Source: Heterotrichella gracilis (taxonomy: Eukaryota > Sar > Xanthophyceae > Tribonematales > Xanthonemataceae). Taken from it: a stretch of DNA of 64,000 bases. Position numbers and translations under genes: made by a program. Where the stretch lies: contig JAULBX010012874.1 of the NCBI GenBank assembly GCA_032358255.1, positions 37,019 to 101,018 on the forward strand, given 5' to 3'. Shown piece by piece: positions 1 through 64,000 of this stretch (its first letter is position 1; each line of letters starts with the position of its first letter). The notes beneath the pieces are model-generated. The model ran no database searches and was not told where the DNA came from. It was given only the letters and a program-made list of their open reading frames with translations.

Positions 1-3000
1 CCCCCCCTGCTGAGGCGCCACTAATTAGGGTCTAGGGTTCCAAGATCTAGGGTTTAGGCCCACTGACCTGTCTCCCTGGGCCACTTCATGAGCTGCGCCC
101 CCCTGCTGAGTCGCCAGCGCTGCACCAGCTCCCCATAAATCATGAAGGGGCACACTGCAAAGGGGATTGGAAAAGAGGGGGGGATCAGGGGAGAAATGCG
201 GTATGCAAGGGGATCCGGGGCCTAGGAGGGCCCACCGGCTGGGGAGGGATCTCCAAGAGGCACACTGCACCCCGACCATGCCGTGCACGGCGTGAGGAAC
301 ATGACCGACCAGCAGTATGCCCACAACACCATCAGCATGGCTTTGTGGTCCCGGTCCTGGGGCCCTATCCCCAGAAACCCTAAGGGAAACCCTAGTACCC
401 TACATTCTTGGGCCAGCCTACCCAAACCCTTGCAAAGGGACAACACCCAGCGCATGCAACGCACCTGCGCACCAGATCCGCCCCACAAATGGGTAGATGA
501 AGAACATGACGGGCCACCAGTACGCCCAGAACACGTTCAGCATGGCGTTGTGGTCCCGATCCTGCGGCCCGATGAACAGCAGCAGCACCACCACCGCGTA
601 CACGTATGCCGTGAACTGGAAATTGATCTTCTCGGGCCACCAATCGCTGCGCAGGAAGGTGCGCAGGCGGGGGATGGAGCGGAGCAGATCGGAGCGCCAA
701 CGCGCGGCGCCCTGTGGAAGAGAAACAAATGAATAAAAGGCTACTGAAACCCTTGTCCAACCCTAAATAGAAATGCACACCACTGGTGTGGGTGGGGCTT
801 TAAACCCTATTTGAACCCTGTACGAATCCTGGTCAAAACCTGGTCCAATGCTGGCCACCAGGATGGAGCAGGCCACCACGTGGCGCCATGTGGGGGCACT
901 CAAAACCCTAAACAGACGCTAAAGAAAGCCTATCAATATGGAGCAGAAAGCCCCCCACCCCCTACCGTTTCATTTCCAATCCCCTACCATATCAACCCCA
1001 CACACCGCCGCCACTGGCCACCCACCTGCGCCGCGAACCAAAACACCTCCTCGGGAAGCTCCCTGACCGCTCCCGCACCACCACCACCACCCGCCGCTGC
1101 CACCGCCGCCCCGCCCCCCACCACATTGCTGGCGGTCTGCTCCAGCCCCCTCCGCACCACCGTCTCAAGCTCACGCAGGTTGTTGGGGAAGGCATACGCC
1201 TCCAGCCGCAACACCGCTTCGGGTGACAGGGCGTAGGTCGGGGAGCCGGCTGCCTGGCGCTGCGCCAGGCCCCGCAGGAAGTAGCGCGCGTTGTCCATGA
1301 TGTCGCGTGGGCGCACCCGCAATGGGGGGACCTATGCGGGGGAGGTTGATTAGGGTTTGATTAGGGTTGCCCTTGGAACTTTTTTGGGTTTTTTTGGGGA
1401 ATTCTATTGGGTGCAAAAGGCTGGGGAGCAGGGTATCTATCGCTGCGCCAGGCCCCGCAGGAAGTAGAAAGCGTTGTCCATGATGTCGCGGGGGCGCACC
1501 CGCAGCGGGGGGACCTGGGGGTGAGGGTTGATTAGGGCTTTCATTAGGGGCTTAAAAGGATGAAGGGACTTGCAAGGACTTAAAGTATATTGTGGTGGGA
1601 GAAGTACCTTCCGCTGTCTGAGGCAACACCAAAAGCCTAAACCGTAACCCAAACCCCATTGGTGACCGGATGCGTGCGGCACTGGTGTGCCACTCAGCTA
1701 AGAGGCGTTTGGCAGGCGTGTAGTGCCGTAGTGGCATAACGACCAAACCCCAAACCTTAGAACCTGCATAATGCATAACCCACCAGGATACCCAACCCAA
1801 AACCCTAAACCCTAACCCATCCCTACCTTGATGACTGTGAACAGCGAGTCGGGGAAGTTTGCCAGCTGGCGCTCCCCGGTGACCAGGATGCGTGCGGCGC
1901 TGGTGTTGAACTCAGGGGGGCGGGGGTCATCCGGCAGGCGTGTGGTGACATAGGTCCCCTCCTGGAGCAACTGCTGGAGCTGGGGGACCAGGGAAGGGGG
2001 TGCCTGGGAGAAATCAGGAAGGGCATGAATGGGGAGGGTTAGGGTTTAGGGAGGCATAAGGGCTGTGATCTGCTGCTGGAGCTGGGGAACCAGGAGGCAG
2101 GTGGGCAGGGTAGGGGGGTGACAAAGAGGGTTTGCACGCGGGCGTTCCGCCACGTTTCCCAATCAGCAATTCCCACACCCTTCCCATCTTCCACTCCTGC
2201 AAGGGCACCTCACCAATTGGATGGTGGTGAGCAGCACAGGATAACCCCCCACAGCACGCACCCACCCCCCACCGCTCACCAGGTGGATGTTGTTGAGCAG
2301 CACCGTGCCCCTGCGCACCCAGTGCAGGAGCCCGCGCTTGCTGCCCCGCCCAAACAGCTCCGCACCGTTGCTGTCCAGCCTCTCACAGTAGAGCGCCACC
2401 ATGGGCTGGTCATAGTCGGGGGAGCCAAAATGGATGAGCTCGGCGATGTTGTCCTTCTCGAGGCCAGGCTCGCCGAAAATGAGGACGGGCTTCCTGCAGG
2501 GAGGAGGGGGGGACTGAGTGTAATCCCTAGGGTTGTGCTAGGGTTTTCACTAGGGTTCTACTGTTGTCCTTTTCGAGGCAGGATCGCCGAAAATGAGGAC
2601 GGGCTTTCTGGACGGAGGTGGGAGGGGCGTGGGCGCAAACCCTAGGGTTCTTATTAGGGTTCTCACTAACATATTGCACTGTTTTCTTTGGGGGGGTTCA
2701 CTGGCTGTGGGACGGAGCAGAACCCTAGGTTCCCACATGGCATCTTTGGAAACAATTTTGTAAAATAATAGTACAACCATGACGACACTGGTACTATATT
2801 CCTGTGCTTTCGAAGGACACTCAGGTCAGGGGTTTTGATACCGCACCTAAATGGGTCCCTGGTTAGGATTTCGGGTTTAGGGTTTTGACCACCGCACCTG
2901 TCAGGGTCCCTGGATGCCTGCACAATCTGGCGCCTCAGCCTGTCTGCATACTTGGAGCTGCCCACTATGCCACGCTTGGGCGAGGAAACCCTATAGGGTT

Positions 3001-5268
3001 GAAGCATGACCTGCCGGTTCTGCTCCGTCTGTATGTGTGGGGTGGGGGGGTGGGTTAAGGGGGGCCATGGGTACGAAGGCAGTGGTGGGGACCATGGGAT
3101 CGCGCTACACACGCCATGGTGGGTGGTGGGGGGGTGGGGGAAGGGTGGGACATGGACACGGTGGTGGTAGTGGTGGGTGGTGGTGGGTGGTACCCATAAC
3201 ATCGCCATAAATCCTCGCATACACCCTAAACACCCTACTTCCAGCGCCATCTAAACCCTAAACCCTAAACCCTAAACACCAAACACCAAACACCCACCTC
3301 CAGTGCCTCCTCAGCCGCACACAGCTTTTCGGTCATCTGCATCACCAAAACCCTGAACACCCTACCTCCAGCGCGTCCCTAAACCCCTGAACCCTCAATC
3401 GTGAACCCTAAACACCCACCTCCAACGCCTCCTCAGCCGCGGACAGCTTGTCAGTCATCTGCAGCACCACGTCGATGGCAAACTGGGGGTTGCTGCGCGC
3501 GATGGGGGTCAGCTGATCCCGGGGAATGGACCACAGAGTGCAGGGACTGAGGGTCTCCACCACCAGGCCTGGTCTTTTTCTCAGGAGCTCTTCAAAGTTG
3601 ACCACCCCGCCTGATCCCAGCTCCACCGCCTCGCCTGCACAATAGGTGGTAGTAGGTACGTGGATGCACGTGTTCCAGCAGTGTAGCCAGGTGCTCGGTG
3701 TTGGGTGGAGGGGACACATGGGTGGAGGGATTAGGGTTTAGGGTCTACAGGGTCTATTTCCCCCACCAAAACCATGGCTTCTTCATGAGCAATTATTTGT
3801 TTGTTTGTTTAGTTATGGTGGGGGAAGCCGGTGGTACATGTCCGTGTTAGGTGTGGACGGTCGTTGTGAGAGCCAGTGGGGTTTGCAGGTTGAGGCAGGC
3901 GATGTGTATGTGCCTCGCCTCGCCTCATGTGCACACGACAGCACAGTGCAGGCACCTGCATGAATGCACTGCCATACGTTTGTGCAAAGTACGCACGCCC
4001 CTTGGGGGTACAACAGGCACCACAACTAGCTGCCTACGCTGTCGACTATAATACCCTAGGTAGGGCTTCCTTCGTCCATCGAGCTCCCTCGCCAACCTCC
4101 TCAGTGTAAGCTGCAGTTATTGGCGAGGACGCTTGAGGGACAGAGGGAACCCTGCCAAGGGTATTATAGTAGACAGGGGTATACTAATAATACTGACCTA
4201 CTAATATGTTAGTATTATTAGTATACCCCTGACAGCACTGGCAGCTAAACTGCGTCCCTGGATACCCTTGAGGGGAGTACGTGTTTTGCACATACCTGTG
4301 GCAATGCACACGTGTACATTCTCTACTGTTCTGGGGTACAGTACATCGACGCCCTGTTTGACGCCCAGGGTTACACTCTAGGGTGTTAGTAGGGTTTTCG
4401 GGGGGCATCCAGTCTCGCCTTATCTTGACTGGCAGGCGCACAGTGTGCCGATCAGCAGCTGATCACCGTGCATGCGTTGCAAGGTCTGGCTCAGGTTATG
4501 GTAGCAGTAGCCTATACAACATATGCACCAAGTGTACGCTTCACAAAACCCGGCCCTGTGCCTTGTTTAGACAAGGTTGTTGTTACCCATGCTTGGTAGC
4601 TGGCTACTCACCCAGCCGGGGTATTGTCAAGTAGAGCATGGACCCTAAGGAAACTGGTGGAACACGTTTATGTATGGAGTGGACTGTAGCTGTGCAAGTA
4701 AATGGGGATGGAAGGCCTTGCACTGTGCAATAAGGTGGGAGAGCAACAGCAGTGTTGGCATACCTGAGGCTGGGTTGGTGGCTCGTACGCTCCCCTCCCT
4801 CACAATCAGGATAGCCTGAGGGATGGGCGTGCTGTCCGCCACCTTGACCCCCTCCTCCACCTGGTTTTGGTCCATCACTTGCAGCATCTGGGTGCACACT
4901 TGGGTGCTGTAGGACGAGAATGGAGCGATGCTTTGGAGCCATTCCAGGTCAGATGCGAGCTCAGGAGACAGCTCTGAGTCCTCATCGCCACTAGAAAGAA
5001 CCGATGTGGCTCGTAGGGGAGAGGGTGTTCGCCTGACGAAGGCCTTGGTGGGCTTCGAGGGCGTGCGGAGGTACGGGACATGATGGGTGATGGCGCAAGT
5101 AGAGGCAGGCGTTTTGGTTCGTGGGCGACAGGGCTGTGGCCTAGGACGAGGTAGGAACGCGGTGGAGGAACCAAGCTGCGTTGCTGGGGTTGTCAAGCAC
5201 CCAGTGGCCATGATGGCCATGGTTTGATGGCAAAACACCGAAACACCGAGAAGGATCAGCGATGCCAC
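1..5268 (-). CDS. cNMP-binding / sigma-54-interaction (AAA+) / 4Fe-4S membrane fusion protein, partial
   Basis: Seven exons were read on the minus strand, all in compatible phase: 5268-4764, 3634-3420, 3028-2898, 2493-2280, 2003-1827, 1331-1026 and 711-465. The gene continues past the left edge. The first about 60 residues are Ser/Thr/Arg/Pro-rich like a chloroplast transit peptide; a second in-frame start (MAIMATG) lies 48 bp downstream of the first ATG. Next comes a cyclic-nucleotide-binding fold (ILIVREGSVRA, then VVNFEELLRKRPG and LWSIPRDQL). A sigma-54-activator-type AAA+ core follows (VLIFGEPGLEKDNIAELIH, GAELFGRGSKRGLLHWVRRG, and RPRDIMDNARYFL with AFPNNLRELE). The last visible exon has two hydrophobic segments ending FIYPFVGRIWCA, as in NosR/CcoG/NapH-type 4Fe-4S membrane proteins. 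Fusions of this layout are known in cyanobacteria and algae. The function is unproven; a redox or metabolite sensor in a plastid membrane is inference. The C-terminal cysteine clusters should lie outside the window. Confidence 0.82.
283..366 (-). repeat. Echo of the exon at 711-465
   Basis: This is a degenerate direct copy of about 491-575, the stretch encoding the last membrane segment of the sigma-54/4Fe-4S gene. It keeps the general order of the sequence but not the FIYPFVGRIWC motif. It lies in the following intron and is read as a decayed tandem duplicate, not a functional exon. Confidence 0.7.
1440..1518 (-). repeat. Echo of the exon start at 1333-1257
   Basis: About 76 bp nearly identical to 1257-1333, the start of the exon encoding VRPRDIMDN and its acceptor side. 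The copy sits upstream of the real exon in the same intron, followed by the same kind of GGGTTTGATTAGGG tract. Reading it as coding duplicates RVRPRDIMDN. Confidence 0.85.
1667..1740 (-). repeat. Echo of the exon part at 1952-1878
   Basis: Degenerate copy of the coding stretch around 1878-1952 (shared words: GGATGCGTGCGGC and GGCAGGCGTGT). It sits in the intron just downstream, in transcription order, of its parent exon and is out of frame. Confidence 0.7.
2565..2620 (-). repeat. Echo of the exon start at 2500-2450
   Basis: Copy of the start of the exon encoding the Walker-A-like stretch (LIFGEPG region). Both copies share CGCCGAAAATGAGGACGGGC. One base lost near position 2577 breaks the frame of the copy. 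Confidence 0.8.
3250..3390 (-). repeat. CCCTAAA tract and echo of the exon end at 3470-3411
   Basis: The stretch holds four close CCCTAAA units (about 3250-3280). A degenerate copy (3290-3345) of the exon end follows, encoding the KLSAAEEALE stretch and its splice donor. A third, shorter trace lies near 3360-3380. Confidence 0.75.
4040..4173. repeat. Long imperfect foldback in intron 1
   Basis: Two 55-nt arms (about 4040-4094 and 4119-4173) are complementary at about 80% of positions, with a loop of roughly 24 nt. Matching words at the arm ends are ACTATAATACCC with GGGTATTATAGT and CTCGCCAA with TTGGCGAG. The size and shape resemble a miRNA precursor or a small foldback transposon. It lies in the first intron of the cNMP/sigma-54 gene. 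Confidence 0.75.
4174..4231. repeat. Second, nearly perfect short foldback
   Basis: Arms 4174-4197 and 4208-4231 pair at 23 of 24 positions around a 10-nt loop. The arms are AT-rich (ACTAATAATACT / AGTATTATTAGT). It directly abuts the longer foldback at 4040-4173. Confidence 0.85.
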
Positions 5269-5879: not shown

Positions 5880-7590
5880 ATGGCTATCAAGCTGCGCACG
5901 GCGTTCAGGCGGATACGGCACTATTTGAAGCACGATGTCAAGGAGATAATCAACCCCTCGCCCATGCCTAACCCTCCTGGCTACGTGCCGCCCCCTCCAG
6001 CCACGTGGAAGCAGTTTTTCGAGGCGAGTGGCACGCTTGCTAGGTTTAAGGGGCGTTCCTATAGTTTGCCCACTGCTTTTGCTTGCATGGGATATGCATG
6101 CTTGTCTGGTTTGATGCGTGCCAAGGGTGTACCTATGTGTGGTACCGTATTTGTGCACGATATTGGTGTATGTGTGTGCGTGCACGCATATTATAAACCA
6201 TGGCAGGGATCGCTGCCTGTGTGGGTGTGCAGTGCGTATGCATGGCGGTGTGCATGGTTTCAGCCCAGAGCTGCAGGGAAATATTTATGTGGGCGTAGCC
6301 ATGGTGGCTAATCCTACCCTGCCTGTACGCATATGCATGGCAAGGGTCTGCGGGGTTCCCAGGCCCACCCTAGTTATTTTAGGATCTTCACCTTCCACAT
6401 AACCCTAAACCCCTGACCTTTCACATAATACTACCACCTGTTTGCTGCAGGCGGCTCGCCTGGCATGGGATGACTACCTTGCCACCTGGCGCCCTGAGGA
6501 GGCGCCACCTGTACACCCGGACGCACAGCAGGGGCCACGGGAGCCAACCTGGACGGAGGAGATGGGTAGGTGTTGGGTTAGGGTTTAGGGTTTAAGGGTT
6601 AGGGTGCACACCAGGGAAACAGGTTTCGTGTGTAAGGTGTAGGACGGAAGACCATTGCAGCCAGGGTCACGGTTTAGGCTTTAACCAGCCGCACAATCCC
6701 TCAGCGCAAGCCGGACTTTCCGGGTTTCTGCTTAGGGTTCATCCAGCTAGGCCACAACCCTAAGCCCATGCTGCACTACCCACCTTCCCGTGTTCCCACC
6801 CTCAACCCCCCACCAAACCCCACCCCTTTGTCCCGCAGAGTCTGTCTTGCAGGCAGGGGGCCGCAACCTCCAACCCGCGCTCAGCCGCCTGTACCAGTCT
6901 AAAGTGGGTGTGTTCAAAGACGCAGCCCAGAACTTCGTGGAGGGGTATCGGGAGGGCGTGGCTGCCTCGCATGCAGGGGAGGGGCTAGGGGGGGTGCTGG
7001 AGCAGGTGCTGGGGGGGATGCAGGGGCGGAGGGAGGAGGGGGGGGTGGGGGGTGGCAGTGCGGGTGGGTCAGAGGGGAATGCGGCAGTGCAGGGGGAGCA
7101 AACAGGGGTTGGAGGGATGGGTGGGGTGGGGAGTGGCGTGGGTCCTGGCCCCAACCAGCCAGGGGGTGCCACGTCAGCAGGTGGACAACCCAGGGAGGCG
7201 CACATGGCCGCCACATCACACGGTGATGTCAGCGGGCGGGTGGATGATGTTGGCACACTGCATGCTGATGTCAGCACACCGCATGCTGGTGTCAACACAC
7301 CACATGCTGATGTTAAAACATCGCATGCTGATGTCAGGGGGAGGGTGGACGATGTCAGCACACCGCATGCTGACGTGACCAGGCGGGTAGACGATGTCAG
7401 CACACCGCATGCTGGTGTCAGTGGGCGGGTGGATGATGTCAGCACACCGCATGCGCATGCTGATGTCAGCAACAGGGAAGCAGCAGGAGCGAAAGGGGAG
7501 GACCCTTTGAAGGGTGGTGGGGATGACACAAAAGGTGACGGGGTGCCCAGTGCAGGGGAACCAGGCCTGGGACAGGCACACAGACAATAG
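5880..7590 (+). CDS. Unrecognised protein with coding minisatellite
   Basis: Start ATG at 5880 is in an excellent context (GCCACCATGG). Exon 1 runs to about 6043-6050 (MAIKLRTAFRRIRHYLKHDV start; basic and amphipathic, possibly organelle-targeting). Exon 2 is 6451-6565 (AARLAWDDYLATWRPEE). Exon 3 is 6839-7590 (ESVLQAGGRNLQPALSRLY, then GVFKDAAQNFVEGYREGV). Exons 2 and 3 join in frame. The only good donor near the end of exon 1 (GT at 6044) leaves the frame one base off, so that junction is unresolved; a small exon may be missing. After a Gly-rich linker the last third is a tandem array of STPHADV-like units, ending in a charged tail. I do not recognise the family. Only the N-terminal about 170 residues look constrained. 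Confidence 0.65.
7213..7474 (+). repeat. 21-bp coding minisatellite
   Basis: Roughly ten copies of a 21-bp unit, GATGTCAGCACACCGCATGCT, with variants and GGGCGGGTGGAT inserts. The unit is a multiple of three, so the frame is kept; it encodes (D/A)DVSTPHA repeats with GRVDDV spacers. This is a likely site of length polymorphism. Confidence 0.9.
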
Positions 7591-8478: not shown

Positions 8479-11400
8479 TCATGGCTCCTTTGTGGGTGCC
8501 CCGCCGGGTTTGAGCGTAATCTCTTCCGGCACGCAGCGGTCAGACATGCGGAAGGCAAGCAGCGCAGCCTCAGCCACATCACTCCAATCAGTGGCCGAGG
8601 CGGATTCAGACGCCTTCCTACATGCGGCAGGTGGGTGTGGTGTTAGCGAGGGACTGGCGTGGGGCGGGGTGTTTGTGCACACAGCGGTAATTGTTGTGGA
8701 ATTTCATCAGATGTGCAAGGCCGCGCTACTGCGCTACCTTGTGCTATGTATCTGCCTCAAGTATCAATTTAGCCTGATCCGCAATTTGCTCTTATTAAAC
8801 AAATCTAGTCCTTTGACCGTTTATCGAATTGTTCGGACTTGGGGGCGTGGCTGGCTGGGCACCTTCCTGCAGGGTGGGTGGGGTGGGTGGGATCGAGATG
8901 AGGGTGTGGAAGCCGGCGCATGCCCTTGGATCCACCGAGAATGGCCAATGGTGCCGCACCATACCCACCATGCAAGGTCTGATGTGACCATTCCTCCAGG
9001 TACCTCCCCACACGCACCTCATCAAAATCTTTCAAGTCGTCCTGTTAGACGAGGCAAGTCACCTGTACCTCTAGGAACACCCTAGGATACCCTAGCGACT
9101 GCAGGAGGAGCAGGCACGTAGACGATAGATTTCGTCTCAGGGAAGTAAATCAGCAATCGCCTACACGCCTGCTCTGCTGCAATTGCTAGGGCAGCCTGGG
9201 GTTTTCTAGGGGTCCAGGTGCCCTGGGTTGTCCCATACAACGATTTCAAAGGCGTGGATGAGGGGTGTGTAGAGTGCCTTCAAACAGCTGTTTTTTTAGA
9301 ATTTGAAAGTGACGGTCTCCACTAAGCAGAGCACAAATCCAGTGCAAGATGAAAACACTAAATAATGACAGGAAGATAACGGCTCTGCACCACCTCCATG
9401 CACCGCACCTTCCCTTCCCCGTTTCATTGATGTGCAAGTTGATTGTCACCACCTTGATGTTCTTGTCCCTCAGGCCCTGCACACACGGAGGGGGGAGTGG
9501 CATCAGGCAGAGCTCTAAGTAATTACTTGAGAGTAATCATTTAGAGTAATCACCGCTAACAGGCAGAGAGCTCTGAGCAATCACTTGAGCATTCACCGCT
9601 TGATGACAAGCATTGCTTACTGACCTTCCATTATAAGGTTAGGGCACACATGCTGGATACCAGTAGGCAAAGTCACCCAGACCGTGACCCCTCACACTGT
9701 CATACAAACCCTGCCACCCTACACAGGATTTGCAGGCCTTTGAATGATCCTACAACCTATAGGTAGGCTTGCACGTCGTTTTCAAACAGATACACAGTCA
9801 GCCTGACATGACACTTGCATGCACATGAAGCGCTGAGACAGGAATGAACCCTAGAACGGGTTTAACCTCAAAACTTTTAACCAAGAAGACCCTAAACTGG
9901 TATGATGTGCAGCATTGGCTCCTGAGTGAGGCAACAGGAGGTATGGCAACTGGGTTAGACCCAGCAGCCATCACCCAACTGAATCTATGGCTTCTGGGTC
10001 TAACCCAGTTGCCATAGATTCAGTTGCCATCACCCAGTCACCACAGGTGCACCTCGTACCAGCTGAGGGTTTTTTTGGTTGAGGGTTTTGAGGCATGCAC
10101 TTCCGAACCTCCAGGCTGGCACCGGGGGGTAGTCCCTGGGCCATACCTACATGCGCATGCAAAACAGTACTTGGGCGTCCCAGCAATATCGCAAGACTAC
10201 GGGTAGTTGGAAACATAAAAAGGTCTCTTTTCACGTCATCTTCTGTAGCATTGCTGAGACTACCGGTTCCTGCATTCTCCCACTACAGCAGTTTCGCGCC
10301 GCTGCTGATGCTGACAATCGTAAAACTTGCTGCCCCTTTCCACACTTGCTGCCCCTCATTGCTTCCCCTTGGCATCACGAGCATACAAAACCCCAAAACC
10401 CTAAAACCCTTTAGCCCACCTCATAGCAGCTTTTGCTCCAGCCCCTGAGCCCCCACTTTGCTGCCGCATACGCCGCCTCCCCTGGGGCCACATCCACCCC
10501 AGCGGTTGACCCTATGTTGATGATGTAGCCACCTCCCTGCTCCACCATGCCCTGGGCAAATGCGCGGGTGAGGCGCATTGGGGCAACCAGGTTGACGGCC
10601 ACCAGACGGTCCCACTCATCGGGGTTTCCTGCAGGGTATTACTCAGGCTTAGTAACTGTAGCGGTAATTGCAATTATCAGTGGTTGACCCTATGTTGATG
10701 TTGTGGCGCCCCCCCACCCCTGCCTAAGTACTAATGGGTGGACCCTGTCCAATGGGCAAATGCGCGGGTGAGGCGCATAGGGGCAACCAGGTGGACTGCC
10801 ACCAAGCGGTCCCACTCATAAGGGTTTCCTGTAGAGTATTGCTTAGGGATAGTAATTGTAGCGATAATTGCAGTTGCCAGGTCTCGCCAATGCTGTCACA
10901 CAAAGTGTGTTGTGCTTGTCAAGCATATGTCCTGGGCGCAAGTGCTCATGCCAATGCTATGGCTGAGGTCGCATTCAAAAAGGGTTTGGCCAGGTTTTTG
11001 ACAAAGGTATTTGCGTACCGTCTAGCGCAGAGAGGCCTCCCTCCACCTGCCACTTCCCGGCATTATTGACCACCCCCTTGTGCTTGTCAAATATGTCCTG
11101 ACATCATTGCTCACCCCGAGACCCTGGCTGAGGTCACTCTTAAAGAGGGTTTGGCAAGGGTTTGAAAAGGGTTTTGGCTGGGGTTTTGGCTAGGGTTTTC
11201 GCGCACCGTCCAGCGCCGAGAGGCCCCCCTCCACCTGCCACTCCCCCGCATTGTTGACCAGCACGTCTACCCTCTTGTGCTTGTCCAGAATGTCCTGGGC
11301 CCATGTGCTCACACCGGGACCCTGGCTGAGATCGCATTCAAAGAGGTCACAGGAGGGGCAGCCAACCGCCTGCAGGCGGCTGCTAGCCTGCGTGGTGAGG

Positions 11401-12850: not shown

Positions 12851-13022
12851 CCCACCGCTCCTTTCCTTGTAGCCAGGATGCACCGCACCGCAGTGTCAGG
12901 CAGTGTTCCCCGTACCTGCTGTAGTGCAGGCAGGGGCAGACCCGGCTGCACCAGCAGGTATAGAGTACACTACCTGAAACTGCAGTGCGGTGCATCCTGA
13001 ATACAGTGAAAGGAGCGGTGGG
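12851..13022. repeat. Long foldback, 56-nt arms
   Basis: Arms 12851-12906 and 12967-13022 are complementary at about 49 of 56 positions, separated by a 60-nt loop. The outer word CCCACCGCTCCTTT and the inner word AGGATGCACCGCA pair exactly. Size and arm identity fit a young hairpin RNA locus or a foldback element. Confidence 0.85.
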
Positions 13023-26500: not shown

Positions 26501-26861
26501 ACAGCAGGTCAGCGGTGGCCAGGACGCTAGATCCAACCCTTCCAGATTGTATTTTCACTTAAACATTCACTCAAATCTGTTTTCTGTTTCCCTTATAAAT
26601 ATATATTTGCAATTACCTGTGCGCCGCAAAGAGCAGCAGGTCAGCGGTGGCCGGGTCGCTAGGGTCTGCGCCCGCCAGGAGGGTTTTCAGCTGCGCCAGG
26701 TTGAGGCCCTCGGTGAGCCTGGGAAGGTGCCAGGTGCCATCTGAGCGCTGCGCGTAGGTGTACAGGGGGTGCAGGGTGGTGTGGAGGGCGGCGCGGTCCT
26801 GGTCTGAGGACAGGTGGGACTGGGCGGCTTGCCAGTCGAAGGGCTGGGGTGCGGGGGCCAT
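23596..26861 (-). CDS. Unrecognised helical protein with His-rich and Lys-rich tail
   Basis: Six exons keep frame throughout: 26861-26617, 26169-26092, 25819-25606, 25233-25048, 24731-24374 and 23933-23596 (472 residues). The start (MAPAPQPFDWQAAQSHLSS) is the only ATG in the exon before a CCACC-rich leader. The body looks fully alpha-helical, with stretches such as YHAAIVLLWTAVQTYVGQ, SLVETAEALVDYIGFLAE, FEEAYEAWAGIRVEGIIF and GLRNVLSLFFISAMGGAGLF. The end is unusual: a cluster of about 20 His with Cys and Asp (HGHCHDPECTVDHGDHHHHH), then a basic stretch (KGGKQQGRKKKAAAGRKH) before the stop. The His/Cys cluster could bind Zn, Ni or Cu, and the basic tail could bind nucleic acid or act as a nuclear signal; both are inference. 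I do not recognise the family. Confidence 0.75.
24062..24130 (-). repeat. Echo of the last exon start
   Basis: Degenerate copy of about 23893-23945 (CAGCTGCTCAATCGGTAACTC versus the parental CAGAGCTGACCATTGAG region read on the other strand). It lies upstream of the real last exon in the same intron. Confidence 0.6.
25535..25568 (-). repeat. Echo of exon 3 end
   Basis: Short copy of 25619-25655 (CGCAAGGGT.TC.CG.ATGGAGCTAGG), placed after the exon end in transcription order, within CCCTAAA-rich DNA. Confidence 0.65.
26388..26530 (-). repeat. Two echoes of the first exon end
   Basis: Copies at about 26390-26425 and 26483-26530 of the exon 1 end (26616-26665, encoding LLLFAAHR plus donor), each preceded by the same AT-rich TTTATATATATA-like spacer. 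The period is about 110-130 bp, and both keep a usable GTAA/GTGA-type donor context. Confidence 0.85.
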
Positions 26862-53800: not shown

Positions 53801-55544
53801 CATCTCGCCGCGCCAGCATTGGGGGAGGGGGCACCCCAGGGGGAAAACACAGGGGAGGGGAAAAGGGAGAGGAGGCGGAGCTTGATTTTGTGCAGGAGCT
53901 GAGGATGCTAGGTGGGTGGGGTGGGTGGTGGAGGTTGGAGACTCTGCTGTGGGTGATGGGATGATGCCTCTCAATCACCATGGTATGGGATAAGCCGTTG
54001 CACGAAAGAATCAAGTAGTGTTGGTAAATACCTCTGCCTGTATGTAATTTGGGGCGTCGGTTACCAGATACAAATATGCGGGGAAATCCTGTCAACATCT
54101 CGCACATCATCCGGTACAACCTACAATCACTGCTACAGTAAAAAGTACAGCGTTTTCAATCCCCTGTGCCAACCACATGACTGCCCCCCTCTCCTCTCCA
54201 GGCGCCCCCCACTCCGCCGCCGCGCGCGCCTCCCTGCCCGCCCCCATGTACCGCGCAGCCCTCTGTGCCCTGCCTGCCAGCGTGCGGCTGTGGTTTGCTG
54301 ACATGAGGGACAGACAGCTGGCGGCAGCGCTGGAGAAGTGAGTACCCTAAATCCTGATCTTAAACCCTAAAGCGCTTACCCTGCCAGCGTGCGGCTGTGG
54401 TTTGCTGACATGAGGGACAGGCAGCTGGCGGCAGCGCTGGGGAATTGAGTACCCTGAGCCTAAACCCTACAGCATAACCCTACATGTGAAGGACAGACAC
54501 CTGGGAGCAGCGAGTACCCAAAACTTTCCATTGTCGCTGCCCTTGCCTGCCGCGCGACAGCTGTCAAAGACACAGAATGTAGAAAAGGGATTGCATTACA
54601 ATAGAGATTTCGCAAATAATGTCTTGGCGATGGGCAAAAGGAAATATCCTTGTTTTTGCTATCTCATAATAAGGGAGAGAAACTGCCTCTTACAAGGAAA
54701 CCCTTTTTCCCTCCCCAGGTACACCTGTGAGTGCGTCTCCCCCTTGCTTGTGCGCGCTGAGCTGGCATCCACCACCGCCACCGCCGCAGCCCTCTCCACA
54801 CCCACCTTCACCATACGCGCAAGCGCAGGCGCGCGCGAGGTTGTTGCCACAGCCGAGGTTGAGGAGGGGTCAAGTTTGGAGGTGGCGGTGCGCCTACCCG
54901 CCAGCTGGCCACTCAGGGCGGCGGAAGCAGAGTGCAGGCGGAAGGTGGGTTTTAAGAATTTTGGTTGGGTTTTGGGGGTTGTGGTGGAACAGGGTTTTGG
55001 TAGGGTTTTTGGGGATTAGGGCATGTTTAGCAGCCGGCGGATAGGGCTGGTGTTTTGTGTGTATTAGTTAGATCTAGGGTTTAGGGTTTAGGGTAGCCAC
55101 ATGGCACTAGCTGTTGGCCACATAGTCCCAGGAGCTACTGGTGGGCCATGCCACCACCCCTGCTGGGAATGTATGAAAAGGCGAAAGGCAAAAAAATTTC
55201 CCCTGCCTCCCCCTCCCCACCCTCATCCTCCACCCCCAACCCCCATGCAGGTGGGCGTGTCAGAACCCCGGCTGCGCAAGTGGCTGCTCTCCATCGCCGC
55301 GCTCCTGCGGGGGGCGAACGGGGGCACAGCCGATGCCCTGGCGCTCTGGAAAACCAACGTTGAGCGGGAATTCCAGGGCCTGGAGGAGTGCCTTATCTGC
55401 TATTCTGTGGTGCACCCTACCTCGGGTCAATTGCCCAACCTGGACTGCCGCACGTGCCGGAAGAGGTTCCATGGCGCGTGCCTCTACAAGTGGTTCCGGA
55501 GCAGCAGCAAGAGCAACTGCCCCCACTGCCAGTCGCCGTGGTAG
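41838..55544 (+). CDS. LTN1: Listerin E3 ubiquitin-protein ligase
   Basis: 27 exons, all in phase, 1992 residues: 41838-41941, 42350-42566, 42705-42914, 43150-43251, 43596-43764, 43978-44378, 44607-44720, 44911-45106, 45429-45580, 45917-46088, 46384-46595, 46941-47223, 47468-48228, 48639-48857, 49184-49572, 50091-50305, 50633-50809, 51047-51335, 51629-51816, 52249-52350, 52597-52764, 53020-53105, 53296-53475, 53695-53911, 54202-54337, 54719-54944, 55251-55544. The N-terminus (RPSSSAKAAEL, then GFGGF and LRRLSKRDPTTKLKAL) is the Listerin signature for binding the stalled 60S subunit. The long middle is HEAT-like helices. The last about 55 residues are the RING-CH finger, with C1942, C1945, C-x2-C, H, C, C1985 and C1988 (EECLICYSV ... 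CLYKWF ... CPHC). Listerin ubiquitinates nascent chains stuck on split ribosomes. Human and Arabidopsis proteins are about 1770-1870 residues; this one is longer through Ala/Gly-rich inserts, mainly in exons 10-13. A G15 run lies in exon 11. Confidence 0.96.
43293..43330 (+). repeat. Echo of LTN1 exon 4 end
   Basis: Copy of 43218-43258 (AGCAG.GGG.GCGCTGCTGT.CTGCAGGCA) with GGTGGGACGTGGTGAAA continuing the parental intron start. Confidence 0.8.
44434..44495 (+). repeat. Echo of LTN1 exon 6 end
   Basis: Copy of 44320-44380 (CCACCTCCTnCC.TGCGATGCTCCC). The donor AAGGTGAG has become AATGTACG, weaker but still GT. Confidence 0.85.
46459..46473 (+). repeat. G15 homopolymer inside LTN1 exon 11
   Basis: Fifteen G in a row encode part of ARGGGGVA. 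The frame is right with 15 as given; an error of one base would break the gene, so the count deserves checking. Confidence 0.95.
48480..48590 (+). repeat. Echo of LTN1 exon 14 start
   Basis: Copy of 48631-48725. Both start after a CCACAG acceptor and share CTCATGCTGGCGCTGGGCCA. The copy stays open for about 40 codons (AAPGGLASW...) and so could be an alternative 5' end of this exon, but it would add a frame leading to a stop. Confidence 0.85.
48890..48968 (+). repeat. Tandem repeat in LTN1 intron 14
   Basis: Three units of about 35 bp with the core TACCCCTTGCTGTG, separated by TTTTGTCCA. Confidence 0.85.
49898..50025 (+). repeat. Tandem 41-bp repeat in LTN1 intron 15
   Basis: Three units with core CTACCCCGCATCTATGTGCC and a poly-C end (AACCCCCC). 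They sit in the pyrimidine-rich part just before the acceptor. Confidence 0.85.
50354..50371 (+). repeat. G18 homopolymer in LTN1 intron 16
   Basis: Eighteen consecutive G bases shortly after the donor of exon 16; noncoding. Confidence 0.95.
50808..51046 (+). repeat. Several echoes of LTN1 exon 18 start
   Basis: The start of exon 18 (GAGTCCTTCCTGAGCCGCC, then TGGTTTCGTCTGTGG) recurs in altered form at about 50812-50850, 50858-50900 and 51018-51042 in the intron before the real exon. Confidence 0.8.
51919..51970 (+). repeat. Echo of LTN1 exon 19 end, donor intact
   Basis: Copy of 51769-51820 (CAGCGCGCGGT.GTGGG, then GCGCGCATG.TGTACG) including GCAGGTGCG/TCAGGTGCG. Confidence 0.88.
54381..54456 (+). 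repeat. Young echo of LTN1 exon 25 end, donor destroyed
   Basis: About 75 bp nearly identical to 54273-54348. Of the few changes, one turns the donor GAAGTGAGT into GAATTGAGT, removing the GT. The spacing of 108 bp defines the duplicated unit. Confidence 0.93.
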
Positions 55545-56692: not shown

Positions 56693-59395
56693 ATGTCCAC
56701 CCCCCGGCCCAGCGACACCAGGGCGGTCCCAAGGGCTGCGGCTGTCGGGTCGCCCCCCACCAAGGCACAGGTAGGTGCTGGGAGGCCTTCGGGGAAAACT
56801 GGTGGCTTAGCCTATGAGGCGACCATTGACTCAAAGCCTTCTCGGAGACCATCTCACGACTGTCTGTAAATCCCGTCTACAGCGTGCAATGCTTCAGCCA
56901 TCATGCCGTGCTTAGCTGCAAGATGCAAGTTGCATGTATCAGCCATAATAATCATGATATGCAGAGTCAGCTGAGCAGGGAGCTGCTGCAGCCAAGACCA
57001 CGCCTCCCTCAAGGTAAAGAATAATATATGCCATGCGGCATCTCTGAGGGGAATCTCACTTTGGCTGAGGTGTGGAGCTGGCTGCAGCAGCTCCACAGCC
57101 TCCATGTGTGCCCATGCACCCCTACCTGCTATTGTCAAGCTCAGAGATCAAGATGGCTCCGGCATACTTCTTGACAGCTTTGCATGCATCCAGAAGATTG
57201 CACCAGGCATGGTAGGCTGCGTGGTTGATAGAGGTGGCCAAGTCCTTTCCAAACCATGTACTGCATGGGCCATTTGACATGCGGCGTGGTTTGCAGCGGC
57301 CTGGCCATGTGTATCCACCAAGCAGCTTATCATGTCTGATGCAGTCTTCTGCATGCATAATAAGAGCTCTGTCAAAATATGGCACAGGTTGGTTTGGCAT
57401 TTGGCGCATATAATGTGGTTACTGCAAGTATGCTGGCAACCCCTGGCACCATGTTTGGGTTTAGGGTTTTAGAGTTTAAGGTTTAGGGTTTGGGATTTGG
57501 CGCATGTGATGTAGTTACTGCAAGCTTGCTGGCTATCCCTGGCACAGGTGGGTACTAGCTATAGGAAGGCCTTTGAGGCAAACCCGTGGCCCTGTGGCGA
57601 CCAATATTGAGACCATTTCACGGCTGTCTGTGGATACCGTCTACAGCGTGCAATGCTTCAGCCATCATGCCGCGCTTAATTTCAAGCTGCAAGTTGCATG
57701 TATCAGCCACAATAATCATGATATGCTTACTCAGGGAGCTGCTGCAGCCAAGACCAAGGCTCACCTCAAGGTGAGAATAATATATGCATCGCTGATGGGA
57801 ATCTCACTTTGGCTGAGGCGTCTTCCTGGCTGCACCAGCTCCATAGATTGCATGCATGCCCATGCACCCCTACCTGCTGTTGTCTCAAAGCTGTCAAGGT
57901 CAGAGATAAGGCCCTTCTTTTAACAGCGTGCATGGATGCAGAAGATTGCATCAGGCACGGTAGGCTGCATGGATGATATACATAGGCCAGCCCGTTCCAG
58001 AGTATGTTCGCATGGGCCATCTGGCATGCGGCGTGGTTTGCAGCGGCCTGGCCATGTGTATCAACCAAGCACCTTACCACGTCTGATGCGGTCTTCTTGT
58101 GCATGGCAAGCTGACAAGAGGTGGGCCCCGTGGCATTTGGCGCATGTGATGTGGTTACTGCAAGCATGCTGGCAACCCCTGGCACCATGTTTGGGGTTTG
58201 GGGTTTTACAGTTTAGGGTTTAGGGTTTGGGATCTGGCGCATGTGATTTACTTACTGCAAGCATGCTGGCAACCCCTGGCACCAATTTTGGGTTTAGGGT
58301 TTTAGAGTTTAGGGTTTATTGTTTGGAATTTGGCGCATGTGATGTGGTTACTGCAAGCATGCTGGTAATCCCTGGCACCATGCCTGGGGCTCCGTTTTGA
58401 CCCCTTCCAAAGTCAAGGTCAGGCCGGCATGATGCCAGCTTGGGGGTTCTGCGTTTAGGGTTTAGGTTTTGACGTCAAAACTGAGCCCTACACGCTGATC
58501 CCCCACGCTGGCACCATGCCGGGGCTGGACCTTGACTTTGGAAGGGCTCTGCAAAGGGATCAATGTTTGCTCCAAGCCCTTCTTTTTGTTACCCTAAACA
58601 CTGAGCCACGCAGGGGCACTTTTGGAGTTCAAGTCTGACTGCTCTCACGCATATGTATATCTGTTGCATCCGTCAGACGTGAATTGCAAGGTTGCCCCGG
58701 CATGGCACAGTGCTTACGGTGCCAAAGAGGCCGCATGCCGCTTGGTGCCATGCCATGCCATGGCTTCAGCAATGAGGTGCATGGACCCTAAACCTAAACC
58801 CTAGGAAGAGGTGCAAGGACCCTAGTAACCATCTCACCATGAGCCATTTTGATTGGCTATCAATCATCGTCTCTGATGGCTGCAGTTGGGGCAGGCAACT
58901 GCCAACATGTGTGCATGCCATTCACCCAGCCACCACCTCCATTTTCAAGCCCCATGCTGATACCCCCCAATCCCTCCAACCCTTCTGATTTCCAGGCCAT
59001 TCCCCTCACCGCCACCGGGCCAGACGAAACACGCCACGCTAGTCCAATGGCAAAAGATCTTTGACGAGGGCTATAGCTAGTAGTATGTGAAACCGCTAAC
59101 CTTGCATTCTAAACACTAAATGCCCACCCCCTTACTTTTGCGTGCTGACCTCCCCCTGCCCCCCACCCCTGCCACATTCCAGGGGCCCGTCACCGCCACC
59201 GGGTCAGATGCCCCCTCCAACGGCGGCCTGGACTACCGCGGCGACAAGCGCTTTGACGAGGGCTACGTGGCGCCCCACCCCAGCCTGCGCAGTGAGACGG
59301 TGCCTGCATCCGAGCTTCAGCGCGTGATGAGCCGCCCCCCCTACGGCCGCCAGTACCTTGAGAGCGTCACCCCCATACACCGCGCCCCCAAGAAG
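56693..59395 (+). CDS. Unrecognised gene, 5' part
   Basis: Exon 1 is 56693-56770 (MSTPRPSDTRAVPRAAAVGS...PPTKAQ; context GCCGCCATG). Exon 2 is 59183-59395 (VTATGSDAPSNGGLDYRGDK, YVAPHPSLRS, then YGRQYLESVTPIHRAPKK). The two join on whole codons and end at a good donor (AAG|GTGTGT). The 2.4-kb intron is packed with duplications. No further exon could be assigned up to 64000; either the gene continues beyond the window across a very long repeat-filled intron or it is a remnant. The Asp/Arg-rich exon 2 looks conserved in style, but I cannot name the family. Confidence 0.55.
56788..58165 (+). repeat. Two-copy segmental tandem duplication
   Basis: Units of roughly 600 bp, about 56788-57420 and 57553-58165, stay colinear with about 80% identity by eye. 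Shared words include TACAGCGTGCAATGCTTCAG, AATAATCATGATATGC, TCTCACTTTGGCTGAGG and CATGCGGCGTGGTTTGCAGC. They lie in the long first intron of the gene at 56693. Confidence 0.85.
57399..57556 (+). repeat. 96-bp repeat array, first block
   Basis: One full and one partial unit of GGCGCATGTGATGTGGTTAC / TGCAAGCATGCTGGCAACCC / TGGCACC followed by TTTAGGG tracts. The same unit recurs at 58135-58388. Confidence 0.9.
58135..58388 (+). repeat. 96-bp repeat array, second block
   Basis: Two and a half further units (58135-58232, 58233-58328, 58329-58388), each with a telomere-type GTTTAGGGTTTAGGG half. The block marks the end of the second segmental copy, so the array was duplicated with it and then expanded. 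Confidence 0.9.
58990..59075 (+). repeat. Echo of exon 2 start (gene 56693)
   Basis: Degenerate copy of 59177-59265: TTCCAGG acceptor, CACCGCCACCGGG.CAGA, then TTTGACGAGGGCTA. It lies in the intron just before the real exon. Confidence 0.85.
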
Positions 59396-59521
59396 GTGTG
59401 TATAGGCAGCCTAATTTTGGGGTTAGGTAGGGTTCCGTGATTGCCAAGGGGAGTGCATGGACAAAGTGGTGCTACCTCAATGTGGAGACCCTAGGTTAGG
59501 GTTTAGTTTCTAGCTGCAGTG

Positions 59522-59785
59522 CATGATGAGCAGGGCCCCCATACAGCCGCCAGTACCTTGAGAGTGTCACCCCCATACACCGCGCACCCAAGAAGGTAGG
59601 AAACCTATGGTAGGGTTGGTAGGGTATGGGTTTACCATCAGCAGAATGTAAGGCTGGCGCCACTGCCACCACTTGATGGGAGTCCTAGGTTAGGGTTTTT
59701 GAGCGCCGACTGGTGGTGGGCAGGCCCCCATACAGCCGCCAGTACCTTGAGAGCGTCACACCCATATCGCACGCCCAAGAAGGTG
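59522..59785 (+). repeat. Two echoes of exon 2 end (gene 56693)
   Basis: Copies at 59527-59600 and 59722-59785 of the exon end (CGCCAGTACCTTGAGAGCGT, then CCCAAGAAGGT). Period about 200 bp; both keep a GTAGG or GTGAGG donor. Confidence 0.92.
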
Positions 59786-62280
59786 AGGATTTTGGACCAG
59801 GTTTTCAGGGTTTACGGTTCAGGATTCGCGCAAACCCTAGATCCCAAACAGTACCTTAGGGTGGGGTTTGGAGGTGATGGTGTCATTTCCGCCACCATAT
59901 GGAGATCCTAGGTCAGGGTAATTTTTAGAGCTGCAGCGCTTGACGAGCACGCCGCCAGTACCAGCAGAAACTGTCATTGTGACGCTCATACATTGCGCCC
60001 TCAACGATACTTGATATCCCGTGTCCACAATCCATGCTCTAGGTTCCCCACAATCTTCGTGTCCAAAGGATTTACATGTACCCTTGTTGGGTGTGGCACT
60101 TTCTGGCGGTGCTGGGCTTGTGGGGAATCTACGGCAGGGATTGGGGATCGCCTTATTGTGGGGGATGGCGCAGATTCTGCTGTCATACGGGAAACCTAGC
60201 ATAGGTTTCTTAAGTGGGTGATGAGCAGGGGCCCCTATAGCACCGGTATCTATTAATTGTTAACCCATACACCACGAGCCAAGGTACATGTACAGATGCA
60301 ACAATGGGGCAAAGGGAAATTTTGGCTAGGGTGCTGGTAGTGTTGGGAAGTTTGGCCGTGTTCAGAATTAAGGGTTTATAAGCTAGGGTTTGGGGTCTCG
60401 GCAACTGTCCCAGCCCTGGCCACATCAGCTACCAACGCTGCCACACAAACTACGGTAGTGATATGCTGGGCAGGACAACTGAGCAAAAAGGCAAACATGT
60501 GCAGAATTTTTGCTTCGGTGCTCTTGCCCATCATGTGGCTTGTTTGCGTTGCAGCTTCGGTAGCTGATTGGGACAGTGGCCAAGACCCTATACCCTAGGT
60601 TGTAACCTAAAACAAGCCGAGACCCTATAATTTAGGTTCTAAACCCTAAACAAGCCGAGGCAGCACGATGGCACACCACGCGGCAGAAGCAGGCAAAAAC
60701 AAAGACATCACACCATGTGCCGACAAGCACATGTACAGATGCAAAAACAGGGCTGATGGATTCCTAAACTAGGGTTTGGGTAGGATTTAGAATTGGAAGT
60801 GTAGTTCGGTCCTGCGCGCGGTGCCATTGTTCCCACTGTGTTGCCATGGCTAGTGCCCCAGCCCTGCCACATCAGCTGCCGACACTGCCAATGCAAACAA
60901 AGCTATGCGCTGGCCTGCTTGACCATACCCAGGAAGATGGGCCTGCGAGAGTGGAACCTGCCACCAGGCCTGAGCAGGCCGATCTATCCTGGTGAGTCAG
61001 GCAGGTCAGCACGTAGCTTTCTTGCGTTGGGCGGTGATGGGAGCCGTTGAGGGCTGGGCTGATACAGTGGCTGAGGCAGCACAGTGGGGACCCTCACACT
61101 AGATTATAAACCCTGAAAAGTTGAACAGGCCCGGGGCCGGACATAAAATGGGGACGATAGGTCAGCACTATGACGAGGTTGAAAATAATCCGAGGTTACG
61201 GGTTGGCCAGGGATAGAGTATAGGCACAGTGCAGGCGTCGGTGAGTAGTCTCTTGGTGAGTCTTACACGCAATTGCAGCATTCCGGATTTTTTTAATATA
61301 TACATGTCTTTCTTTTATGAGAGAAGGACATGTGCACATGTGCCATGGGGATCACACGGGAAAAGGAAAAAAAGAAAGAGCAGCGTGCTGGCCTGCTACC
61401 TACAGCAGAAGGATGGATCAGTGAGAGAGAAGCCTCTAAACCCTAAACATAAACCCTTAACATAACCCCAAACAGGCCGAGGCAGCACAATGGTCCCCGG
61501 CCCTTTGCAAGCCCATCTATACTGCGTGTGGTGCCCTGGCCCCCACTGCCCAGCACGGCCCTTATGAGCTACCAACCTTACCAACACAAAGAAGATGTGC
61601 GCGGGCGACCGAAACCAAGCAAAGGAGATGGGCCTGCATAGGGCTGGTGGCAGATCCCCCTCCCGCAGGCCTACCTCGTAGCGTGGTTTCGGCCGCCAGC
61701 GCATCTTGTTTGTGTTGGTACGATTGGGTACGAGCTCGTGAGGCCGGGCGCATGACGGCCGTAGGGCTCATGAAGGCAGAGCTGGGGCAGTGGCTGAGGC
61801 AGCACAATGGGGACCCCAACCCAAGATCCTAAACCCTAAGCCCTAGACAGGCCGGGGCAGCACAATTGGGAATGTACCCCCACATTCTCAACCCTAAACC
61901 TAAACCCTAAACAGGCCGAGGCGGCACATTGGGGACCATGGCACATCACACGCAAGACGCATGTAAAACCTACGCTTGTCCCATGCATGGCACGCGCAGC
62001 ACCCCCAAGGTCGGAAACCCTAGGGTAGGATTTTGCTAGGGTTAGATCTTGACCGCAATCAAGCTGTCGTTACGTAGGCGCTTGGTGAGCGTCACACCAA
62101 GGACAACCTAGCTATTATCGGCCTTGAATACTACAGTACCATGTACATGCCCAGTCGAAACTTACATACTGTACAGCACAATGGTACATGTCACGTCCAG
62201 TGCACCATGGGTATCATCGCAGAGGGAAACCTTGTTCAGGGTTTGGGTAGGATTCTGGAGCTGGCAGCTGGACTGGTTCT

Positions 62281-63799: not shown

Positions 63800-64000
63800 C
63801 ATCGCTAACATCCTGCTGCCTCCGCCCTAACTGTTTAGGGTGTAGGGTTTAGGGTTTAGGGTTCTGCGTGCTCACCATCACCCCACATCCCGCTGCCTCA
63901 GCAACTGTTTAGGGTGTAGGGTGTAGGGTTTAGGGTTCTGCGTGCTCACCATCACCCCACATCCCGCTGCCTCAGCAACTGTTTAGGGTGTAGGGTTTAG
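63800..64000 (+). repeat. 74-bp telomere-linked tandem repeat
   Basis: Two nearly identical units starting GTTCTGCGTGCTCACCATCA at 63861 and 63935, plus a diverged one before. Each unit ends in three or four GTTTAGGG/TGTAGGG words. The array runs off the right edge. Confidence 0.92.

Follow-up and report, generated by a model that had tools for sequence, protein, structure and literature searches.

About one intron in eight in a 244-kb sample of the genome of the xanthophycean alga Heterotrichella gracilis (47 of 381) holds a copy of the end of its adjoining exon (SW score of at least 46). These exon-border echoes are real and lie above chance. In our view it is highly probable that they stem from short tandem duplications which span one splice junction, are nearly neutral, persist and lengthen the introns.

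The sample consisted of a window of 64 kb (the whole stretch of DNA presented here) and 18 ten-kb loci; 95 of the 381 introns lie in the window. Exons were called with a self-trained HMM on sequence alone, and exons and introns are predicted throughout. Exon ends were compared with their own intron, an SW score of at least 46 defining an echo and one of at least 34 serving as a looser cut-off. Reverse-complemented exons, three shuffles and three permutations to other introns were used as controls. Single-junction units (n = 60) were drawn from 61 clusters pairing an exon with noncoding DNA at a spacing of at most 300. The p-values are optimistic, since they treat events within the same gene as independent.

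Scores of at least 46 were reached at 29 of the 381 5' ends and at 24 of the 381 3' ends. None was obtained at this cut-off with reverse-complemented exons against the 381 introns (3 and 1 at the looser cut-off) or in any of the three shuffles of exon end against intron, and the permutations of exon ends to other introns gave 0, 1 and 0. The sequence-only reading had described exon borders as copied in the neighbouring intron, to be compared with exon-like matches in random introns. In the 244-kb sample echoes proved far commoner than such matches (47 introns against 0 in shuffles and 0-1 in permutations). Comparison of exon ends with the intron next in the list gave 4 and 11 matches, in line with echoes that are themselves called as exons, and with the intron two places away 0 and 1. 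No dispersed family was seen when exon ends were compared with other introns of the 381. Recognisable tandem copies account for 9.4% of the intronic bases of the sample. Four of the 47 introns with an echo measure less than 150 nt, and these could be spurious introns within repetitive coding sequence.

In the window, 14 of the 95 introns score at least 46 and 20 at least 34. Seventy-three direct-repeat pairs (offset 40-1500) were found there, against 0 in a dinucleotide shuffle, and in 28 out of 39 repeat clusters an exon sequence is matched to noncoding DNA or to another, separately predicted exon. The earlier count of more than twenty introns was about right, given the 20 introns at the looser cut-off and these 28 clusters.

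The following cases were delimited by HMM calls for the presumed functional borders and by repeat alignment for the echoes. On the reverse strand, a gene with a sigma-54 interaction domain carries its functional copy, comprising an intron end and the start of exon 1026-1331, at 1240-1366, and a 3' splice site echo at 1423-1549 (85%, spacing 183) that keeps its AG and of which 1449-1514 was called as exon. The 3' splice border of exon 2214-2493 (2447-2552) is echoed at 2562-2668, with 96% identity in the exon part and homology along about 59 of the 68 nt of intron flank. The 5' splice border of exon 3420-3634 and its flank (3350-3469) have an echo at 3223-3347 (79%, spacing 127), in which a telomere-type tract lies at 3251-3280 and a segment at 3298-3336 was called as exon. 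An echo at 3360-3380 that had been described as barely visible is part of this larger unit. In SDR exon 10420-10628 (adh_short, PF00106, 1.3e-44) the 3' border at 10553-10675 is echoed at 10753-10875 (87%, spacing 200). The 5' border of SDR exon 11207-11387 (11165-11346) has two echoes within 10910-11148 (10978-11148 against 11165-11346, 77%; 10910-10983 against 11275-11346, 78%), and that of SDR exon 12141-12260 (12113-12196) has two tandem ones at 11830-12053, with a period of about 141 (11830-12053 against 11971-12196, 93%). Two 5' splice site echoes of exon 26617-26843 lie at 26391-26530, its border being at 26587-26662 (26459-26530 against 26587-26662, 80%; 26391-26423 against 26615-26647, 94%). 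The 3' border of aldo/keto reductase exon 32910-33197 (33116-33203; PF00248, 1.7e-39) is echoed at 33255-33342 with 93% identity, the intron flank not being recognisably homologous.

The forward-strand cases are all echoes of 5' splice borders. That of exon 14562-14797 (14746-14843) recurs at 14861-14958 with an intact decoy GT (87%, spacing 115), and that of exon 17168-17272 (17234-17277) at 17326-17369, where the decoy GT has decayed to GC and a telomere-type tract, recognised by reading the sequence, separates border and echo (17301-17325). In a gene with a listerin-like C-terminus, the border of exon 43978-44378 (44315-44380) is echoed at 44430-44495 (82%). The border of exon 54202-54337 in the listerin-like gene (54273-54373; the C-terminal stretch of the gene contains PF23009 and RING PF13639) has an echo at 54380-54473 (87%, spacing 107), in which TT has replaced the decoy GT, and a weaker third copy of 26 nt (85%) at about 54487. 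Two further copies of the border of predicted exon 59183-59395 (59313-59398) lie within 59512-59789, one at 59512-59601 and the other at about 59713-59789; each was called in part as exon, and 59313-59601 aligns with 59512-59789 at 74%. The copies that the earlier reading had cited at 10895-11146, 11855-12065, 26388-26530, 54381-54456 and 59522-59785 are all present. A CP26-like exon of locus L030 had as its best matches chlorophyll-binding chains in 9is4 and 6kac, the latter a Chlamydomonas structure; taken by itself, this match pointed to a green alga, probably a chlorophycean.

Repeat pairs spaced at 40-300 bp are direct in 167 cases and inverted in 4, and the spacing quartiles of 113 clusters are 97-184 bp. 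Of the 61 exon-versus-noncoding clusters, 60 contain one junction (31 5' and 29 3' splice sites) and 1 contains a whole exon. In 41 of the 60 units homology of the intron flank exceeds the 95% null and extends over a median of 82% of the flank; in the other 19 the flank is not recognisably homologous. These alignments show most units (41 of 60) to be tandem duplications, contiguous and some 60-250 bp long. Introns that carry an echo exceed the others in length (median 406 versus 271 nt, p = 4e-6). Growth of introns by tandem duplication across splice junctions, as proposed earlier, is supported by the direct, mostly contiguous copies and by the greater length of the echo introns. An intron part shorter than 35 nt beside the authentic site was seen in 1 of the 60 units, against 28% at random; given an intron part of at least 36 nt, the position of the junction matches random placement (KS p = 0.27). 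This pattern of at least 35 nt, which like the telomere-type repeats described below adds to what the sequence-only reading had observed, probably reflects a filter imposed by splicing signals, that is selection, which we infer from the pattern. Likeness between the 5' and the 3' junction of a single intron, as a tandem duplication that creates a new intron would leave, was seen in 10 of 346 introns (at least 90 nt, score at least 36) and in 0 of the permutations, but the exons on either side are often echo copies themselves.

The spare copy appears to decay mostly as a neutral pseudo-exon. Mismatches between exon and echo amount to 7.9, 8.4 and 18.8% at codon positions 1, 2 and 3. Stops are created by 4 single changes, where 3.1% (about 10) would be expected, and some past constraint on the echoes is possible. 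Decoy splice sites are created, as the earlier reading had described, and are often intact (GT in 18 of 31, AG in 23 of 29). Selection against the decoy GT was considered and rejected: the seeming deficit (18 of 31 against 24.3 expected) vanished with echoes aligned up to the junction, among which GT is kept in 13 of 17 (13.4 expected) and AG in 19 of 19 (15.0 expected). Two elements of the earlier description were not borne out. Weakening of copies with distance is not a rule, as the nearest echo scores best in 11 of the 21 arrays with at least two echoes and not in the other 10. Nor is a continuing process supported: very recent copies are scarce, with 2 of 92 exon-spanning clusters at least 95% identical, although the assembly may have collapsed such copies.

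It is improbable that the echoes serve as functional alternative ends of exons or as mutually exclusive tandem exons. Several copies are open and HMM-called, 33 clusters are of a split type with both members in exons, decoy sites often survive, and synonymous changes are in excess among single exon-echo differences (165 of 338 versus 29% for random changes), an excess due largely to the exon's own silent changes. Against this, the 61 exon-versus-noncoding echoes contain 27 indels, of which 25 are not multiples of 3, and the reading frame is not kept in these echoes. An origin in mis-assembly is far less probable still: contigs of mixed origin do exist, but the divergence of most copies, 5-30% with indels among the differences, is not what mis-assembly readily produces. 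A more serious alternative, to which we give somewhat less than an even chance, is that the emphasis on exon borders is largely a detection bias, duplications within intron interiors being equally frequent and fading faster as two neutral copies. Intron flanks are far more diverged than the exon parts copied in the same event, and only 16 of 60 flanks would alone reach the detection score. Yet simulations predicted 91 and 108 intron-only clusters where 16 were observed, with flanks fading at only about twice the rate of exon copies, and 35.5 were expected against 9 observed when exons and internal introns of at most 600 nt were considered. Under the strictest detectability (16 of 60) the gap narrows to about 17 expected against 9. 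Real flanks fade faster than the simulated twofold rate, and the excess at exon borders is therefore claimed more weakly.

Many echoes are accompanied by telomere-type repeats. No other 7-mer class of the introns is as strongly enriched as TTTAGGG (1599 observed versus 162 expected; z = 112, the next class reaching 18), and tracts scoring at least 28 occur in 92 of 381 introns. Exact matches to four telomere units number 209 genome-wide, overlapping matches and contig ends included, and the pattern read backwards gives 0. In pooled models the density of such repeats is 11.7/kb in introns, 3.1/kb in predicted intergenic DNA and 1.1/kb in exons. Arrays of telomere repeats stand at the start of contigs C70 and C140, and a telomerase RNA-binding domain is encoded in the genome. 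In 37 of 60 units a heptamer is situated between the functional border and its echo; the figure for echo-free introns matched for side and length is 19% (p = 7e-13). TTTAGGG is enriched 4.4-fold compared with 0.5-2.5 for eleven other 7-mer classes. The length-stratified odds ratio is 3.8 (p = 2e-4), the echo segments having been read in both directions and the control in one. Within the same intron, for which 23 of the 60 units were usable, the echo end has a heptamer in 16 and the other end in 8 (Fisher test with ends unpaired, p = 0.04). Units with the heptamer between border and echo and none on the far side of the echo number 18, against 1 with the opposite arrangement. Tract density is 50.2/kb in the homologous flank and 51.7/kb in the unaligned stretch adjoining the copy joint, so insertion as filler at the joint does not by itself account for the tract. 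A model in which telomere repeats are put in just there is not supported, given this equality of the pooled densities, although several clear cases of a tract at the joint occur among 26 joints inspected.

Ordinary tandem duplication by replication slippage or end joining, in which telomeres play no role and the tracts are splicing-compatible sequence in tolerant introns, comes close to an even prospect. G-runs after the 5' splice site and a branch-site-like CCCTAA before the 3' splice site would suit splicing. Units at 3' splice sites have 97 C-strand and 4 G-strand heptamers, those at 5' splice sites 95 G and 65 C; echo-free introns follow the same trend, and selection on splicing thus also acts. 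Loss of the tract at the decoy and its retention at the authentic site would likewise yield 18 versus 1. Ordinary duplication also accords with equal tract density in flank and joint, and with the covariation, over 19 loci, of telomere density in echo-free introns with echo fraction (Spearman 0.55, p = 0.015). Against it stand the height of the telomere class above the next, the twelve permuted units of the same bases, which mark a mean of 3.3 and a maximum of 9 introns versus 92, and the contrast within single introns, whose echo end is richer than the other (63.8 versus 15.5/kb, 23 units).

In the duplication mechanism that we favour overall, head-to-tail duplications of about 60-250 bp would arise within genes. 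Those spanning exactly one junction and leaving some 35 nt or more of intron at the authentic site would be nearly neutral and persist because the outer junction, we infer, is still used. A retained duplication would lengthen the intron, and its spare exon border, with the decoy splice site, would decay like a pseudo-exon. The sequence itself shows that the copies are direct and in most units contiguous, that they follow the one-junction and 35-nt patterns, and that their decay looks largely neutral. As to how the duplications originate, we tentatively suggest, at rather less than even confidence, repair of staggered breaks by fill-in and end joining, with TTTAGGG repeats added at the break or destabilising it, which would explain the tracts beside echoes. 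CST, which takes part in fill-in at breaks, is also a telomere complex. The stronger claim, that telomere-associated repair drives intron growth in this lineage, each event duplicating an exon border and seeding TTTAGGG, we regard as unlikely.

Tandem genomic duplication is reportedly a route of intron gain in the Rogers model and in Gao and Lynch 2009. The sequence-only reading knew of no standard class for the echoes; duplication across an intron-exon boundary is in fact described for a potato RdRp gene (PMC4974935), and tandem genomic duplication is counted among intron-gain mechanisms in a review (PMC3443670). The potato case is likewise a local direct duplication over an intron-exon border, but it makes a new intron and is single, whereas here an existing intron mainly grows while the copy decays, in 47 of 381 sampled introns and with serial copies. 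Interstitial telomeric sequences (ITS), according to PMC7215372, are inserted at double-strand breaks, 3 of 66 horse loci showing a target duplication and nothing else, and human intronic ITS are compatible with random insertion. They share with our case telomere repeats in introns and not in coding exons, and direct duplication of the target, in their case at staggered breaks; here, by contrast, duplications of some 60-250 bp abound, the tract extends outside the joint, and intronic density exceeds that of predicted intergenic DNA (11.7 versus 3.1/kb). Fill-in by CST/Pol alpha-primase at breaks with 3' overhangs, followed by end joining, gives small tandem duplications (PMC8355091) that are also short and direct; these come from induced breaks in mouse and human cells, are introduced there as shorter than 100 bp, and telomere repeats are not mentioned in the portion of that source available. 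Introners (PMC9860276) similarly affect many introns of one genome, but echoes match their own adjoining exon, other introns giving 0-1 of 381 per side at a score of at least 46. Among the matches listed from the open-access literature, no title or opening of an abstract reports telomere-type repeats as a general intron feature or exon-border echoes at such density in an alga. The duplication process is known; its density here and its association with telomere-type repeats are unusual and look new.

Intron lengthening and the origin of decoy sites are usually inferred from isolated cases, and 244 kb of this genome offer dozens of copies of graded age. If telomere-associated repair is involved, intronic TTTAGGG would be a marker of past breaks and would account for the top 7-mer class of the introns. 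Should the telomere link hold, intron growth and telomere-marked break repair would be testable in one organism.

The assembly comprises 68.5 Mb in 903 contigs, with the window located at C130:37019-101018. Beside the window, 24 loci were drawn (19 plus 5, the first 19 being of 10 kb each), and the six with a GC content of 33-37% (L007, L008, L009, L018, L019 and L021) were excluded from every gene-level count, the working set thus being the window and 18 loci (244 kb). These low-GC loci lie on contigs of the same assembly and, apart from L007 (contig C1), were assigned by GC; L007, the one of the six that was looked at, carries tightly packed bacterial-type two-component genes, so that a bacterium probably lives with the culture or contaminates it. 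Since annotation was absent, a splice-aware HMM was trained on the 244 kb itself, and all exons and introns are therefore predicted. It returned 427 exons and 405 introns, with a median intron length of 280 nt and GT-AG sites of ordinary consensus; 381 introns are flanked by two exons.

The window gene models yield recognisable proteins, with Pfam matches of five stretches to a short-chain dehydrogenase, an aldo/keto reductase, PF23009 plus RING (presumably listerin), LSM and sigma-54 interaction domains. The last of these, in a predicted protein on the minus strand (1-5220), is accompanied by a cNMP-binding match below the curated cut-off (25.4 versus 27.5 bits), a combination that is, to our knowledge, unusual in a eukaryote. 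Chlorophyll-binding proteins gave 43 matches; together with the PDB matches of one of these proteins, they were taken to point to a green alga. A predicted coding exon contains an in-frame minisatellite (7212-7471) with a repeated D-V-S-T-P-H-A peptide, and nested tandem arrays with offsets of about 764 and 97 occupy 56845-58389, where the gene models have no domain support. Three hairpins (12851-13022, 4039-4176 and 9930-10028) look MITE-like: their arms, 42-71 nt long and 81-88% complementary, enclose short loops.

The sequence-only reading had claimed that exon borders are copied, as echoes, within the adjacent introns, and had proposed comparing introns with their flanking exons against shuffled sequence. 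Self-comparison of the window gave 73 direct pairs at offsets of 40-1500, and a dinucleotide shuffle none. On the 244 kb, the first or last 150 nt of each exon were aligned to the exon's own intron. Matches scoring at least 46 were found in 29 of 381 introns on the 5' side and in 24 of 381 on the 3' side, 47 introns altogether, against none at that score for the reverse complement or in three shuffle runs. Exon ends aligned to other introns gave 0, 1 and 0 matches in three permutations, and 0 and 1 with introns two further on; the 4 and 11 matches in the next-listed intron are expected, because some echoes were themselves called exons. The claim is thus borne out. Pairs were also present in two of six small loci around chlorophyll-binding exons.

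Clusters with a spacing of up to 450 (n = 117) joined exon and noncoding sequence in 63 cases and two predicted exons in 33; 16 were intron-only, 4 lay inside one exon and 1 was intergenic. Among the exon-versus-noncoding clusters with a spacing of up to 300, 60 of 61 included exactly one splice junction and one a whole exon. These 60 units (31 at 5' and 29 at 3' splice sites) were used for all unit analyses, the 33 both-exon clusters being omitted. In the alignments, the exon end is duplicated in one block with the splice site and the flanking intron sequence; this flank is homologous beyond the 95% null in 41 of 60 units (median flank coverage 82% in those 41). Given the direct orientation, the adjacency and the inclusion of the flank, the simplest reading of the units is tandem duplication across splice junctions, in agreement with the earlier proposal. 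In some introns, copies had also been said to weaken with distance; the nearest echo was the best in 11 of 21 arrays of at least two echoes. Nor is the class new: tandem genomic duplication over an intron-exon border (PMC4974935) and as a route of intron gain (PMC3443670) is in print. In the literature searched, mostly titles and the beginnings of abstracts, we found neither such an echo density, nor the intron-remainder rule described below, nor an association of echoes with telomere repeats.

Random placement predicts 35% exon-plus-noncoding and 44% intron-only clusters, whereas 92 and 16 of 113 were seen; simulated fading predicted 91 or 108 intron-only clusters. With detectability taken from real flanks, 35.5 intron-only clusters are expected and 9 were seen (exons and internal introns of up to 600 nt); under the harshest detectability (16 of 60 flanks), our own arithmetic gives about 17 against 9. 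From these graded calibrations an exon-border excess of about two- to fourfold is likely, yet not proven.

Only one of the 60 units has an intron part of less than 35 nt separating the authentic site from its echo, against 28% of random placements; with a minimum of 36 nt imposed, the units lay as expected at random (KS p = 0.27). This would most simply reflect a selective filter, by which an authentic site has to retain its own intronic signals: at 3' splice sites the branch site with the pyrimidine tract, at 5' splice sites the signals close to the 5'ss. In the exon part, echo-versus-exon mismatches at codon positions 1, 2 and 3 amounted to 7.9, 8.4 and 18.8%, and 25 of 27 indels were not multiples of three. 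Single changes were synonymous in 165 of 338 cases (29% of random changes) and gave stops in 4 of 338 (3.1% of random changes). This decay is broadly that expected of a neutral copy against a constrained exon; given the excess at third positions, the echoes may have been under some constraint in the past. The duplications would, as had been suggested, create decoy splice sites, of which 18 of 31 still have their GT and 23 of 29 their AG. Where the alignment reaches the junction, 13 of 17 GT (13.4 expected) and 19 of 19 AG (15.0 expected) are retained, so there is no sign of decoy purging.

TTTAGGG/CCCTAAA is the most enriched 7-mer class of introns in the 244 kb (1599 versus 162 expected, z = 112), followed by a class one base different (z = 18). 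We take it as the telomere repeat because two contigs (C70 and C140) start with its arrays; a telomerase RNA-binding domain is encoded. Tracts (for example 3251-3280 and 17301-17325 of the window) scored at least 28 in 92 of 381 introns, while twelve permuted units did so in 3.3 introns on average and in 9 at most, and tract density under pooled background models was 11.7/kb in introns, 3.1/kb in predicted intergenic DNA (19 kb) and 1.1/kb in exons.

These tracts go with echoes. Of the 60 units, 37 carried one in the stretch from border to echo; in side- and length-matched echo-free introns the share was 19% (p = 7e-13). The length-stratified odds ratio of tract and echo was 3.8 (p = 2e-4). 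Density was 47.6/kb in the stretch from border to echo, 17.2/kb at the corresponding position on the far side of the echo and 10.1/kb in controls; 18 units had tracts solely in the first of these places and 1 solely in the second, while 19 had them in both and 22 in neither. Within the same intron (23 of 60 units, where both ends could be compared), the echo end had 63.8/kb (16/23) and the opposite end 15.5/kb (8/23; unpaired Fisher p = 0.04). The 7-mer ratios were 4.4 for TTTAGGG and 0.5-2.5 for eleven other classes. Echo frequency varied strongly among 19 loci, with 0/17 introns in L016 and 7/18 in L024, and tracked the telomere density of echo-free introns (Spearman 0.55, p = 0.015). Of four loci around exact telomere tracts, two (L038 and L039) were packed with tandem pairs, 9 in the one and 7 in the other at a spacing of 40-450, and the remaining two had none.

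Fill-in of a staggered break followed by end joining produces small tandem duplications (PMC8355091). Breaks can also take up telomere repeats, alongside direct target duplication (PMC7215372), duplication alone accounting for 3 of 66 horse loci and further loci being complex. Together these processes would yield such an arrangement. A pure insertion model is nevertheless disfavoured, as the homologous flank and the joint are equally dense in tracts (50.2 and 51.7/kb) and the strand goes with the splice side: 3' units contain 97 C-strand versus 4 G-strand heptamers and 5' units 65 versus 95, and the preference for the G-strand near 5' and the C-strand near 3' splice sites also appears as a trend in echo-free introns. 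The association fits as well with a tract that makes the DNA prone to breakage, or with one that is tolerated or used as a splicing signal. We propose only tentatively, and with rather more doubt than confidence, that telomere-type repeats may form part of the cause.
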